42,154 nt of DNA from Chloroflexota bacterium (lineage in GTDB: Bacteria > Chloroflexota > Dormibacteria > CF-121). This document shows positions 25,304-29,686 of the stretch, piece by piece. A model generated the notes under the pieces. That model ran no database searches, was not told the DNA's origin, and saw nothing but the letters and a program-made list of their open reading frames with translations. The stretch covers positions 1-42,154 of the forward strand of contig VBID01000135.1 of NCBI GenBank assembly GCA_005880615.1, written 5' to 3'. The number at the start of each line of letters is the position of its first letter. The stretch's first letter is position 1. The position numbers were made by a program, and so were the translations under genes.

Positions 25304-26101
25304 ATGGCGCCACGAAGAGCCTCGGAGTCACCCTTTGAGGAATTGTTGCTTGTGCTGACCGACCAGCCCCTATGGGTATCGGTAGCTGCCGCCGTAGTAT
25401 TTCTGCTCGCCGGTTGGGTTCCCTTGCCGGTGGCCGGAGGTCGACCGACCCAACCAATATGGGACGAACTCCGACATGGATTGGCCCTGGCTCTGACGGT
25501 TTTGGTCATTCTGGCTGGCCTGGTTGGCGTGGTCAAACGTCTTGCCCGCCGACATCTCCCGATTGGCTATGAAGGTCTCGGAGACATCCGTGACATGAAG
25601 TGGCAAGAGTTCGAGAAACTTGTCGGGGAGGCATATCGCCGGCTCGGTTATACCGTGGCCGTGACGGGAGGCGGCGGCCCGGACGGTGGCTTCGACCTGG
25701 ACCTTCGAGGAAAGGATGGCAGAACTCTGGTCCAATGCAAGCAGTGGCGGAGCTTTCAGGTTGGAGTGCGTGAAACGCGGGAGTTGCTGGGTGTGTTGGT
25801 CCACGAGGGGGCTGACCGAGCAGTCCTGATCACGACGGGGTCGTTCACCCCTGACGCCCTGGCCCTGGCCCGGGGAGAACCAATCGATCTGATCGATGGA
25901 AACGGCCTGGCGAAGCTCATCAAGGAAGTCCGCATGGCTCCTCAAGCTACCGTCGCTCCAGCCCCAGCGCTATCTCCGACTTGTCCCAAGTGCGGAAACG
26001 AGATGGTGCGCCGTATAGCACCCCGTGGACCGGATGCCGGCTCAGCCTTCTGGGGCTGCTCGACCTACCCGGCCTGCACAGGAACGCAGCGCGTCGCCTG
26101 A
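25304..26101 (+). CDS. membrane-anchored Mrr-like restriction endonuclease with C4 zinc finger
   Basis: A 265-aa protein in three parts. Residues ~18-42 and ~62-80 are two hydrophobic helices, which would anchor it to the membrane. Residues ~95-215 are an Mrr-type catalytic domain: MKWQEFEKLVGEAYRRLGY, GGGGPDGGFDLDL with the catalytic Asp, and LVQCKQW (QxK), followed by AVLITTGSFTPDAL. The C-terminus is a topoisomerase-type C4 zinc finger, CPKCGNEMVRR to FWGCSTYPACTGT. Mrr enzymes cut modified DNA, and soluble Mrr is the classic form; the two helices and zinc finger are a recurrent variant. No methyltransferase is nearby. A TAGGTC hexamer sits 6 nt before the ATG, with no Shine-Dalgarno. Confidence 0.9.
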   Translation: MAPRRASESPFEELLLVLTDQPLWVSVAAAVVFLLAGWVPLPVAGGRPTQPIWDELRHGLALALTVLVILAGLVGVVKRLARRHLPIGYEGLGDIRDMKWQEFEKLVGEAYRRLGYTVAVTGGGGPDGGFDLDLRGKDGRTLVQCKQWRSFQVGVRETRELLGVLVHEGADRAVLITTGSFTPDALALARGEPIDLIDGNGLAKLIKEVRMAPQATVAPAPALSPTCPKCGNEMVRRIAPRGPDAGSAFWGCSTYPACTGTQRVA

Positions 26102-26186
26102 CCGTCCGCGCCCCATCTTCGTCCCCCTCCATGCTTCCGCGAGGGTAGGGAAGCGGACGGGTCGAGTCAAGGTCTGGTCTTGACAT

Positions 26187-26220
26187 GTGACCATACGGGG
26201 TAATTATCCCCTGACTGGAG
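26187..26220 (+). repeat. left terminal inverted repeat of the transposon
   Basis: 34 bp starting GTGACCATACGG and ending CCCTGACTGGAG; it differs from the right end at four positions. A TTGACA hexamer (26180-26185) lies just outside. Confidence 0.9.
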
Positions 26221-26229
26221 AAAAGGTGC

Positions 26230-26235
26230 TATAAT
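26230..26235 (+). promoter_or_regulatory. -10 element of the transposase gene, leaderless
   Basis: A consensus TATAAT lies exactly 6 nt before the transposase ATG, with no Shine-Dalgarno; transcription should start at or next to the ATG. Confidence 0.6.
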
Positions 26236-26241
26236 ACGGCT

Positions 26242-27255
26242 ATGGCAGGCAACCGAAAGCGACCAACCAGGGGGACGGCTTCGGAGTCCCGGTACTCGCT
26301 TATGGAGTTCACGCGGGAGTTTCCCGACGATGCCGCCTGCCTGGACTACCTGTGGCGCGCTCGCTACTCCTCTGACGGCAGGCACGCCGACTGCCCAGAG
26401 TGCAAGCAGCGCCGGATGTTCAAACGGTACGAGACCGCTCAGCAGCGCCAGTCGTGGTCTTGCACCCATTGCGGCCATCACCTGCATCCGACCGCCGGGA
26501 CGATCTTCCACAAGTCGTCCACGGCGCTCCACCTGTGGTTCTACGCCATCTACCTGATTACCAGCACTCGCTGCGGAATCTCTGCCAAGCAGCTGGAGCG
26601 AGAGATCGGCGTGGGCTACAAGACCGCGTGGCGCATGTTCAACCTCATCCGCAATAGCCTGATGACGGAGACACCCGCGCCCCTCTCGGGCAACGTTGAG
26701 ATGGACGAGACCTACGTCGGCGGCAAGCCTCGCGCCCGCGAGATTCAGGCGATGGCGCGGATGGGACTCGGCCCGATGCAGGCTGGTCAGGCAGCGGCAC
26801 GTGCCAAGAAAACAACCGTGTTCGGCATGGTCGAGCGTGGTGGCAAGGTCGTCGCACGGGTCGTGCCGTCCGAGTTCCAGGCATCGGCCTTCGGGCACAT
26901 CGAAGCCCATATCCTCCCGGCCTCGCACATCTTCACGGACGAAGCGGCCGCCTACTCCGCGCTGGCTAGGAAGGGCTACGCGCATCGGCGCATTCAGCAT
27001 GCCGCCAGGGTCTACGTCGATGGCGACGTTCACACGCAAACCATCGACGGATTCTGGTCGCTGCTCAAGAGCGGGATTCGCGGCGTCTATCATTCGGTTT
27101 CCGCCAAGTGGCTCCAGTCGTACCTGGACGAATACGCGTGGCGGTACAACCACCGGGAACACACCGAACGCGGGACCGGCCAGCGCCGGATGCCGGTCGG
27201 TGAGGCGAAGTTCCGGCTACTGCTGGCTCGGGCGGCAGCGCCGCTTGCGGTCTGA
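26242..27255 (+). CDS. IS1595-family transposase
   Basis: A 337-aa DDE-type transposase. The N-terminal zinc ribbon has CPEC (near residue 50) and SCTHCGHH (near residue 75). The linker GTIFHKSSTALHLWFYAIYL and KQLEREIGVGYKTAWRM are hallmarks of IS1595 elements. The catalytic ISXO2-like domain has VEMDETYVGG (first Asp), HIFTDEAAAY (second Asp) and TIDGFWSLLK, the region of the third acidic residue. The end YLDEYAWRYNHRE is also typical. The frame is intact and it is flanked by matching terminal repeats, so the element may be active. Expression is probably leaderless from TATAAT. Confidence 0.95.
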   Translation: MAGNRKRPTRGTASESRYSLMEFTREFPDDAACLDYLWRARYSSDGRHADCPECKQRRMFKRYETAQQRQSWSCTHCGHHLHPTAGTIFHKSSTALHLWFYAIYLITSTRCGISAKQLEREIGVGYKTAWRMFNLIRNSLMTETPAPLSGNVEMDETYVGGKPRAREIQAMARMGLGPMQAGQAAARAKKTTVFGMVERGGKVVARVVPSEFQASAFGHIEAHILPASHIFTDEAAAYSALARKGYAHRRIQHAARVYVDGDVHTQTIDGFWSLLKSGIRGVYHSVSAKWLQSYLDEYAWRYNHREHTERGTGQRRMPVGEAKFRLLLARAAAPLAV

Positions 27256-27257
27256 GC

Positions 27258-27431
27258 ATGAGTGATGAGCAGCAGCCGCCCGAGCCCCCTCCGGACAAGG
27301 GCGGGGACAGCGACGACTTCCCCTTGGAGAAGGAAACGCCCTACGATGACGGCGAAACTGAGATTAGGGCCCGGCCTATACCCTGGCGACCAGCCAGAGG
27401 CCCACGACCAGAACGAGAGTCTCAACGATAA
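27258..27431 (+). CDS. possible 57-aa acidic/proline-rich protein after the transposase
   Basis: An ATG 3 nt after the transposase stop opens a 57-aa frame: acidic and Pro-rich first (MSDEQQPPEPPPDKGGDSDD), then Arg-rich (RPIPWRPARGPRPERE). It overlaps the end of the opposite-strand membrane-protein gene by about 55 bp. Close spacing to the transposase is the only support; the composition is unlike a folded domain. It may be a small accessory protein of the element or chance. Confidence 0.35.
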   Translation: MSDEQQPPEPPPDKGGDSDDFPLEKETPYDDGETEIRARPIPWRPARGPRPERESQR

Positions 27432-27840
27432 GCAGCCGAAGGCCCCATTCGGCTGCCCACACCTTTTGCCCGTATGCGGCCTTGTTTGACTCAAAGTCCT
27501 TATGGAACTTAACAGCCATGTTTTCTTTGATGACATGGAGCGAGGTTCGGTTATAGCCTTTGGCAACGTCACTGGCCTTGGGGCCTTTTCCCCATTTGCG
27601 GGGTCTCAGACCGAAGAGCGTTACTCCGGCCAGAAGGACGTAAGGGATGGCACATAAGACTAATGGCCAAAGGTTCGGATGGGTTGACGGACGGAGGGCG
27701 ACGACCGCGGCAACGATGCTGACCAATCCACTCCCCACCGCTAGAAAGAGACCCAGCTTTGCGTCCAGCGAATCCACCGATGACATTTGGGACGTTAGTT
27801 GGTCGCGAGTGAGGTCGTACATCGGTTGGGGGTCGTTCAC
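27376..27840 (-). CDS. transposon cargo: three-helix membrane protein, SLATT/PycTM-like layout
   Basis: A 154-aa protein unlike any transposition protein. An amphipathic N-terminal helix (MYDLTRDQLTSQMSSVDSLD) leads into two close membrane helices (LGLFLAVGSGLVSIVAAVVA and LWPLVLCAIPYVLLAGVTLF). A ~55-residue charged cytoplasmic segment follows, then a final membrane helix (LLIVETLVLVVGLWLVARV). This order resembles membrane effectors of nucleotide-signalling defence systems (SLATT, PycTM), but the resemblance is topological and unproven. The GTG start overlaps the stop of the 57-aa basic protein (GTGA), so it is translationally coupled and third in the cargo operon. A fixed trio suggests a shared function. 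Confidence 0.8.
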   Translation of the reverse strand: MNDPQPMYDLTRDQLTSQMSSVDSLDAKLGLFLAVGSGLVSIVAAVVALRPSTHPNLWPLVLCAIPYVLLAGVTLFGLRPRKWGKGPKASDVAKGYNRTSLHVIKENMAVKFHKDFESNKAAYGQKVWAAEWGLRLLIVETLVLVVGLWLVARV

Positions 27841-28010
27841 GGCTTCCCCTGCTTGGGGCTGTCCTTCCCCTCGCCCGAGGAGTCGAACTTGGACGCCTTG
27901 CGGAGATCGCGGATGAAGTTGCGCCGCGAAGGGACGGGGATTTCAAGCCCCTGGTCGGTCTTTTGTGTCGGCTGGCCCTTGCGGATGCTGAGCTTTGGCT
28001 TGCGACCCAT
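27837..28010 (-). CDS. transposon cargo: 57-aa basic protein
   Basis: A small gene between the DUF4145 and membrane-protein genes: MGRKPKLSIRKGQPTQK, then GLEIPVPSRRNFIRDLRKAS and a Ser/Gly/Lys-rich tail. It is strongly basic and probably unstructured outside the RNFIRDLRKAS helix. TGGAGG lies 4 nt before the ATG, and its TGA overlaps the GTG of the next gene, so a real gene is likely despite its size. The family is unknown to me. Confidence 0.68.
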   Translation of the reverse strand: MGRKPKLSIRKGQPTQKTDQGLEIPVPSRRNFIRDLRKASKFDSSGEGKDSPKQGKP

Positions 28011-28022
28011 GCGACCTCCATT

Positions 28023-28832
28023 CTAGGCAGGATCATTCGGCAGTGGCTTGATCGGTTTGCGATCCGCTGCCTTCAACTTTCCATCGATGGCGTCACGCAT
28101 CTTCTTGTCAGCGGCAGGAGTCGCGATTAGATGGTCAAAGAGACGCTGGACTAGATCGAGGGTCCAATCGGCCTCCGCGCGTTCGATCTTGATGATCTGG
28201 CCGTGATCGCTCGTCTTTTTATGTGCCCCGAGGTCGGCTATTTCCCGGAAGTGGTGGAGGTTCTCCCGCAACGTTCGCGGGTGGGCTGGCTGCTTGTTGA
28301 ACGCGTCGATCCGATCAGTCAGGCTAAATTGGGTATGGCCCGCATACCGTTCTAGGAGATCGGCCAGGATGCTCCGCGCCAGCACCGCAGACATTCGTGG
28401 GCTGAGGTCAAGGATGGCAGCGGCTTCCTGATAGTCCTCGACCATGCTGCGCGGCACAGTGGGATCAACTGGCTCCCGACCTCCCGTGCGCGGCCATACG
28501 ATCACGGACAGGGTTTCGAGTAGCGGAGCGTCGCCCGCCATGCGAAAGTCGCTACGATTCAGCCGGATCACTGTTTCCCCGCATTCCTCGTTGGCACACA
28601 ACATCCACTCGACCGTAAATCGGATGTTGCCCTTGCCGGGAATCTTCTCAGCGCCATGCACCTGCCTAAGTACCTGACCAGGCCCAGCGTCGAGAGCGTT
28701 CCACGAGTCCGGCGTGTTCTGGCTACAAGTCGGGCACTTCATCTCTTGATCCCAAGCAACCGGAGCGCCCCCCCACAGGTCGGCCCATTTCCCGTCCCCA
28801 TTCTCGTACTCCCCTGTCTCCCTGTCACGCAA
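28023..28832 (-). CDS. transposon cargo: zinc-ribbon DUF4145 protein
   Basis: A ~269-aa protein. Near the N-terminus CPTC and CANEECGE form a zinc-ribbon-like cysteine pair set. The C-terminal ~140 residues fit DUF4145: DYQEAAAILDLSPRMSAVLA, then ILADLLERY, and HFREIADLGAHKKTS, followed by a helix with RAEADWTLDLVQRLFDHLI. DUF4145 is found alone or fused to restriction and helicase proteins and is suspected in defence; its biochemistry is unknown. I choose the TTG at 28832 because GGAGAGGAGGAG lies 8 nt upstream; the frame is open to a GTG that is the very first codon of the right terminal repeat (28883). The ribosome site thus lies next to or within the inner edge of the terminal repeat. Confidence 0.85.
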   Translation of the reverse strand: MRDRETGEYENGDGKWADLWGGAPVAWDQEMKCPTCSQNTPDSWNALDAGPGQVLRQVHGAEKIPGKGNIRFTVEWMLCANEECGETVIRLNRSDFRMAGDAPLLETLSVIVWPRTGGREPVDPTVPRSMVEDYQEAAAILDLSPRMSAVLARSILADLLERYAGHTQFSLTDRIDAFNKQPAHPRTLRENLHHFREIADLGAHKKTSDHGQIIKIERAEADWTLDLVQRLFDHLIATPAADKKMRDAIDGKLKAADRKPIKPLPNDPA

Positions 28833-28849
28833 ATTAGGATACTCCTCCT

Positions 28850-28883
28850 CTCCAGTGAGGGGATAGTTACCCCATACGGTCAC
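28850..28883 (-). repeat. right terminal inverted repeat of the transposon
   Basis: The reverse complement begins GTGACCGTATGGGGTAACTA; 30 of 34 positions match the left end. It lies inside the open frame upstream of the DUF4145 gene. Confidence 0.9.
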
Positions 28884-28884
28884 C

Positions 28885-28890
28885 TATACT
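28885..28890 (+). promoter_or_regulatory. -10 element abutting the transposon end
   Basis: TATACT begins 2 bp after the transposon and ends 7 nt before the ATG of the ArsR-type gene, a leaderless arrangement. Any -35 element would have to lie inside the transposon's terminal repeat. Confidence 0.5.
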
Positions 28891-28897
28891 GCTGGGC

Positions 28898-29686
28898 ATG
28901 GACGAGGTGTTCAGAGCTCTCGCCGATCCGACGAGGCGGAGCCTTCTCGACGAGCTCTTCCGCCAGGACGGACAGACCCTGACCGCCCTGGAGGCGCACT
29001 TTTCGATGACGCGATTCGGCGTGATGAAGCACCTGAAGCTGCTAGAGAAGGCGGGGCTGGTGGTGACCAAGCGGCGAGGGCGCGAGAAGCTCCATTTTCT
29101 GAACCCGGTTCCAATCCGGCTTGTCCACGACCGGTGGGTGAGCAAGTACGCCCAGCCTTGGGCCGCGGCACTGAGCGGCCTCAAAGATCAATTGGAGGAA
29201 CGACGCATGGAAAAGGTATTCGAGATTTACATCAAGACCACTCCCGAGCGGCTGTGGCAGGCGATCACCGACCCGGAGATGCGAAGCAAGTACCAGTTCG
29301 GCTCCCAGTTCAGCGCGGACTTCACGCCCGGGTCGCGCTACGAGATGACCCGCCCGGACAATGGCGGGCTCCTGGGAGAGGGCGAGAACCTCGAGGTCGA
29401 CCCGCCGCGCCGGCTGGTCCAGAGCATGCGGGCACTGTGGGGCGAGGATGTAAAGCGTGAGGGAACCTCGAGGATCACCTGGGAAATCGAACCGGTCGGT
29501 GACTCCTGCCGCCTGACCGTCACTCACGACCAGCTTCGCGAGCGCGCACACGACCAGCTGTACGGTGGCTGGCCGATGATCCTCTCCGGCCTGAAGACGC
29601 TGCTCGAGACGGGCGAGCTGTTGACCACCCCGGGGTCGCTGATGTACGGCTACCCGACCCAACCGGCAGGAAGGCGCAGCCGCTAA
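28898..29686 (+). CDS. ArsR-type regulator fused to SRPBCC (AHSA1-like) domain
   Basis: A 262-aa two-domain protein. Residues 1-95 are an ArsR-type winged helix (FRALADPTRRSLLDELF; ALEAHFSMTRFGVMKHLKLL; GLVVTKRRGREKLHFLNP) without the metal-binding cysteines of classic ArsR. Residues ~100-245 are an SRPBCC/AHSA1 domain (EKVFEIYIKTTPERLWQAIT; GSRYEMTRPD; SRITWEIEPVGDSCRLTVTH; GGWPMILSGLKTLLETGE). These are usually two neighbouring genes; here an internal Met at the junction could still start the second domain, with GGAGG upstream (near 29208). The ligand is unknown. The ATG lies 15 bp after the transposon's right end, so its native upstream control has been replaced. Confidence 0.9.
   Translation: MDEVFRALADPTRRSLLDELFRQDGQTLTALEAHFSMTRFGVMKHLKLLEKAGLVVTKRRGREKLHFLNPVPIRLVHDRWVSKYAQPWAAALSGLKDQLEERRMEKVFEIYIKTTPERLWQAITDPEMRSKYQFGSQFSADFTPGSRYEMTRPDNGGLLGEGENLEVDPPRRLVQSMRALWGEDVKREGTSRITWEIEPVGDSCRLTVTHDQLRERAHDQLYGGWPMILSGLKTLLETGELLTTPGSLMYGYPTQPAGRRSR

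Follow-up and report, generated by a model that had tools for sequence, protein, structure and literature searches.

We assign a probability of roughly 0.7 to the reading that the window (the whole stretch of 42,154 nucleotides analysed here, from a Chloroflexota bacterium) holds a passenger-carrying IS1595 transposon in the operator of an ArsR-SRPBCC gene, with a constant core of transposase and microprotein and with exchangeable passengers that are separate from one another. An earlier note on the same DNA had thought it plausible that three of its genes are a sensor or adaptor, a linker and an effector of one undescribed module; its observations are partly confirmed and its interpretation is partly supported.

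The element is real, with inverted ends, a transposase in an open reading frame and three genes on the minus strand, which show the 12-bp gap and the GTGA overlap described before (Table 1). Its assignment to IS1595 also holds: the transposase matches Pfam PF12762 over the full domain (positions 1-153, E = 6.7e-41) and NCBIfam NF033547 (185.8 bits, cut-off 75), inverted ends of this kind have an expected count of 0.00 when the window is shuffled and thus greatly exceed chance, and an 8-bp target duplication is present. The inverted repeats had been given as 34 bp long, and it is this extent that does not stand. A search for duplications across the ends found a perfect 8-bp duplication, CCATACGG, inside them; hence the element extends from 26199 to 28871, its ends (GGTAAYTATCCCC) lie 12 bp inward of those reported earlier, and the repeats measure 23 bp. 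They looked like 34 bp because a palindrome of the host, split in two, supplies their outermost bases. Eight sister elements end alike (GGTAA, GGCAA or GGTAG), each with 7-8 of 8 duplicated bases. The transposon is single-copy in its genome bin (3.6 Mb). A viral collection also contains contigs with elements of this IS1595 lineage (L203, L204 and L205); the ends of L203 match perfectly (20/20), an 8-bp duplication is present, and a membrane protein is added to its passengers.

Table 1. The transposon, its genes and its insertion site, in coordinates of the window
Feature	Position	Strand	Remarks
Host -35-like box TTGACA	26180..26185	+	severed from the -10 box by the insertion
Left half of host operator palindrome, GTGACC	26187..26192		empty site conserved in relatives
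Left target-site duplication CCATACGG	26191..26198		
IS1595-family transposon, corrected boundaries	26199..28871		2673 bp, ends GGTAA; 8/8 target duplication and terminal repeats; same rule in eight sisters
Left terminal inverted repeat GGTAATTATCCCCTGACTGGAGA	26199..26221	+	21/23 match to right end
IS1595 transposase, 337 aa	26242..27255	+	third catalytic position Asp instead of Glu
Possible 57-aa acidic, proline-rich ORF	27258..27431	+	status uncertain; absent from the earlier note
Three-helix membrane protein, 154 aa	27376..27840	-	variable passenger between transposase and microprotein; distantly PycTM/2TM-effector-like
Basic microprotein, 57 aa, motif Q.T..G.EIPVP.R	27837..28010	-	constant gene of this IS1595 lineage
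DUF4145 protein, 239 aa, N-terminal CxxC residues	28023..28742	-	variable passenger, weakly PD-T7-4-like
Right terminal inverted repeat GGTAACTATCCCCTCACTGGAGA	28849..28871	-	21/23 match to left end
Right target-site duplication CCATACGG	28872..28879		
Right half of host operator palindrome, GGTCAC	28878..28883		empty site conserved in relatives
Host -10-like box TATACT	28885..28890	+	18-nt spacer once the flanks are joined
Host ArsR-type HTH and AHSA1/SRPBCC gene	28898..29686	+	promoter interrupted

The host palindrome, GTGACC-N4-GGTCAC, is split by the transposon between the -35 and -10 boxes. Joining the flanks gives the transposon-free site TTGACATGTGACCATACGGTCACCTATACT and the promoter TTGACA-TGTGACCATACGGTCACC-TATACT, directly upstream of the ArsR-SRPBCC gene. 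By pattern search, the uninterrupted promoter-operator (TTGACANGTGACCNNNNGGTCACCTAT) was found in 24 of the 110 class genomes, compared with 0 for the reversed control pattern, and the gene downstream belongs to the same ArsR-SRPBCC family at all 15 loci read (L206-L220). This sequence is probably an autoregulated ArsR-type operator. Inspection by eye of the right end of the transposon revealed no -35-like hexamer at the proper distance, and a hybrid promoter is therefore not obvious. Directly left of the transposon, and outside it, lies a host gene (25304-26101) for an Mrr-type nuclease (PF04471, E = 7e-30) with a Top1-like zinc ribbon and a hydrophobic N-terminus.

Another element, found in G054 and with a transposase 64% identical, has inserted into this operator as well, in reverse orientation. 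L143 and L144, which carry different cargo in two genomes of one genus, are likewise inserted in similar target sequences (ATTACACAGACT[AG]G...GTAGTGCGTC) and in opposite orientations, while L060 is placed before a clpP-like gene (named by reading its protein), within a long palindrome that is nearly perfect. Target palindromy is pronounced for the window, L147, L060 and L145 and weak or absent at the remaining sites, and of nine target sites no more than three or four show a clear operator-like palindrome; we regard palindromic target choice as a tendency and not as a rule. The occurrence of two different elements in one regulatory palindrome, in opposite orientations, makes target recognition testable. 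The literature retrieved, which did not include the key 2009 paper on the IS1595 family, contains no description of operator targeting by IS1595 or of the microprotein.

The transposase had been called intact, and this is correct for its reading frame. The first two residues of the catalytic triad (D, D) are also present, but the third position reads IDGFWS (Asp), compared with IEGFWS in most relatives, and because of this residue the current activity of the transposase is uncertain. The transposase of L060 shares the Asp at the third position, and L060 has a perfect duplication too. A possible additional ORF (27258-27431) begins two bases past the transposase stop and is convergent with the membrane-protein gene; domain and profile searches gave no family match for it. 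A short, disordered-looking ORF adjoins the membrane homologues L190, L192, L195, L196 and L198 too.

The 57-aa basic protein is encoded with the position and spacing that the earlier note gave, but instead of linking cargo proteins it appears to belong to the transposition module, as it adjoins the transposase and diverges with it. Two relatives were detected in 300 genomes of the phylum, both next to an IS1595 transposase sequence and with differing neighbours. Further copies were sought with a degenerate pattern for the GLEIPVPxR core over the GTDB collection and then with profile scans, and among the matches listed they occur in Chloroflexota, Actinomycetota and viral contigs. When the entire class was searched by profile, nine genomes proved to have the microprotein, and in these it adjoins an IS1595 transposase or remnant unless the copy is decayed or lies at a contig end. 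A transposase or remnant is present on the expected side in 21 of the 25 copies listed, the other four being contig-cut or decayed; these copy counts combine several modes of search and do not represent random sampling, whole genomes were sampled within the phylum Chloroflexota, and MAG contigs are fragmentary.

Within the transposase lineage, 11 of 12 elements possess the microprotein, compared with 0 of 13 outside it; the element without it, L148, counts against its constancy. Its presence on the transposase tree requires 2 changes, against 8.5 with shuffled labels. Distances of the microprotein and the transposase are correlated (r = 0.85, 14/5000 permutations, for 7 elements; r = 0.39, 88/5000 permutations, for 11 elements), while those of cargo and transposase are not (r = -0.29). 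For instance, L145 and L146 are 82% identical in the transposase and 81% in the microprotein but 25% in the cargo. As judged from these sequence comparisons, the divergence of the microprotein tracks the transposase and not the cargo. Linkage alone may account for some of the shared divergence, because the microprotein gene, typically antiparallel to the transposase gene, overlaps its 3' end by ~30-45 bp. In the window and L143 the membrane-protein gene lies between the two, and the microprotein overlaps or closely trails a same-strand passenger, an arrangement that would also suit a passenger partner. No domain can be recognised in the microprotein, no toxin-antitoxin homology was detected for it, and plasmid searches with it and with the membrane protein gave no match. 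A ~75-aa HTH-like ORF (IAxxAGLSRQ) was also observed between transposase and microprotein in two elements (L204:5065-5367 and L065:3678-3986), and is possibly another recurrent passenger.

Passenger-bearing members of IS1595 were reportedly known to Siguier et al. in 2009. In the lineage studied here, sister elements whose transposases are related and whose ends are alike in kind carry unrelated cargo. The commonest passenger is a ~260-aa family with the signature NLRSALDHLxWEL...DKHR, which accompanies 17 of the 25 microprotein copies listed and spans Chloroflexota, Actinomycetota and viral contigs; it gave no match to Pfam, PADLOC or PDB folds. An HNH-like passenger (CxFC...EH...CNxGW), recognised by eye and without a profile match, occurs in three elements (L060, L232 and L234), and L143 carries a RelA/SpoT protein that matches PADLOC PDC-S33 (E = 1e-105). 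DUF4145 is carried in the window alone among the 25 copies listed. Since the same transposase and microprotein occur with different passengers, those in the window do not form one conserved defence module. Fast turnover of cargo, with most passenger types in few elements, together with the decay of several copies elsewhere (L234 and L236), would agree with passengers that are neutral hitchhikers between the transposon ends and have no selected function. However, nearly all elements keep open frames with a coding-like base composition, and the ~260-aa family recurs in two phyla and in viral contigs, so we consider such neutrality unlikely.

Alternatively, the microprotein could be a promiscuous antitoxin that neutralises diverse toxic passengers, in which case the transposon would be an addiction element. 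In almost all intact elements that encode the microprotein, a passenger is its neighbour, the RelA/SpoT passenger (PF04607, PDC-S33) belongs to a group with known toxin members, and its gene overlaps the microprotein gene; moreover, toxin-antitoxin pairs are known within Tn3 transposition modules, according to the available part of the source (PMC7157771). This role nevertheless seems quite unlikely, because in most elements transcription of the microprotein gene leads away from the cargo, because microprotein and cargo sequences do not vary together, and because the commonest passenger is without a known family or solved fold.

It is plausible that single passengers are defence-like, as their profile matches (PD-T7-4, PycTM and PDC-S33) offer hints, not proof. 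The DUF4145 domain of the first cargo gene, as previously noted, is found (E = 1.4e-9), but the start at 28883 is not tenable: a GTG at this position was rejected because it falls in the host operator, and the ORF likely starts at the ATG at 28742, given that the homologue L202 also begins MKCPxC. The protein matches the PADLOC profile PD-T7-4 with E = 2.1e-7, at profile positions 15-115 of 211 only and hence not over its full length. L202, the nearest homologue in the class, does not adjoin IS1595 or the other two cargo genes. A HEPN-like fold shared by DUF4145 and the commonest passenger was suspected and found no support from profile comparison.

The membrane protein had been likened to SLATT and PycTM effectors. 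A distant match to the PADLOC PycTM profile is compatible with the second likeness (10 of 14 family members, best E = 3.9e-9; window protein E = 1.2e-4 at residues 9-78, half the profile), whereas none of the 14 members matches a SLATT or PycTM family of Pfam at E up to 1, and the protein gave no match below E 0.5 in a fold search and nothing significant in a sequence search against the PDB. Its AlphaFold model (mean pLDDT 82.5) has predicted helices at residues 5-49, 58-78, 89-96 and 101-153. No pyrimidine cyclase (PycC) was found among the genes of the element or the scanned neighbours. The gene is present in one other element only, L143, on the opposite strand; a scan of the genome collection with the protein found no relatives, and for most of the other phylum homologues the DNA read showed no linkage to IS1595. 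Three small single-contig genomes (L187, L188 and L189) have it at a conserved chromosomal position between genes identified, by reading their proteins, as type-IIA topoisomerase-like and RelA/SpoT-like, and this placement suggests a housekeeping rather than a mobile role there.

That a DUF4145 sensor, a 57-aa linker and a membrane effector make up one undescribed defence or addiction module, as the earlier note proposed, accords with their tight spacing and with the PD-T7-4 and PycTM matches but is highly improbable, since the trio was found once and recurs neither with nor without the transposase among the 25 microprotein copies listed, the phylum membrane homologues and the DUF4145 homologue, since other cargo lies beside the microprotein in all other elements, and since homologues of the two larger proteins are placed apart as described above. 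The three observations that the earlier note named as refuting its proposal were all made: unrelated cargo in elements with ends of this kind, no second occurrence of the trio, and no PDB fold match for the membrane protein. The case serves as a warning that tight gene spacing inside a transposon need not mean a functional module.

In the preferred reading of a constant core with separate, exchangeable passengers, the sequence itself shows that the transposon inserted, with an 8-bp duplication, into a palindromic operator in the spacer of the ArsR-SRPBCC promoter and parted -35 from -10. The core consists of the transposase and a basic microprotein of ~45-60 aa, whose gene lies past the 3' end of the transposase gene and on the other strand, and passengers are exchanged at two positions, the interval between transposase and microprotein and that between microprotein and right end. 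The microprotein may act with the transposition module, as a partner or regulator of the transposase that aids or restrains transposition, and the DUF4145 and PycTM-like passengers are probably separate host-benefit genes, defence-like or stress-related, and not a three-part machine. The ArsR-SRPBCC gene would lose its native promoter, and its expression may be reduced or rewired. Possible, though doubtful, is the wider proposal that this lineage has a new class of transposition-linked microprotein, swaps cargo and repeatedly takes up defence-like genes (DUF4145/PD-T7-4-like, PycTM-like and PDC-S33 RelA/SpoT), and prefers palindromic operators between -35 and -10 boxes; if true, operator landing could change the wiring of a regulator in the host while sparing coding sequence. 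Constant parts (transposase and microprotein) are here told apart from exchangeable ones in a small bacterial transposon, and an uncharacterised conserved protein of ~50 aa gains concrete candidate roles in transposase control, target choice or cargo neutralisation.

Among known systems, PD-T7-4 is an anti-phage protein linked to mobile elements (PADLOC PDLC04109; PMC9519451). The DUF4145 passenger resembles it in its weak profile match and in its location on a mobile element, but covers about half of the profile. The membrane family resembles PycTM of Pycsar in its profile match and in being predicted all-helical with long first and last helices; unlike in Pycsar, the element and scanned neighbours lack a cyclase, the match of the window copy is partial, and Pfam gives none. 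PDC-S33, a RelA/SpoT candidate defence protein (PADLOC PDLC04999), is a passenger of the sister L143 and is absent from the window. The Tn3 family with toxin-antitoxin pairs also has small extra genes within its transposition core, as far as the available part of that source (PMC7157771) goes, but it uses another transposase family, and the microprotein is without detected toxin-antitoxin homology. IS1595 members are characterised by a zinc-ribbon and DDE transposase and an 8-bp target duplication, and the related Merlin elements have ends that begin GG (PMC8101967); the element in the window shares the transposase family with both domains, the 8-bp duplication and ends beginning GG. Usual IS1595 members, however, consist of a single transposase gene, whereas this lineage adds a microprotein and exchangeable passengers.
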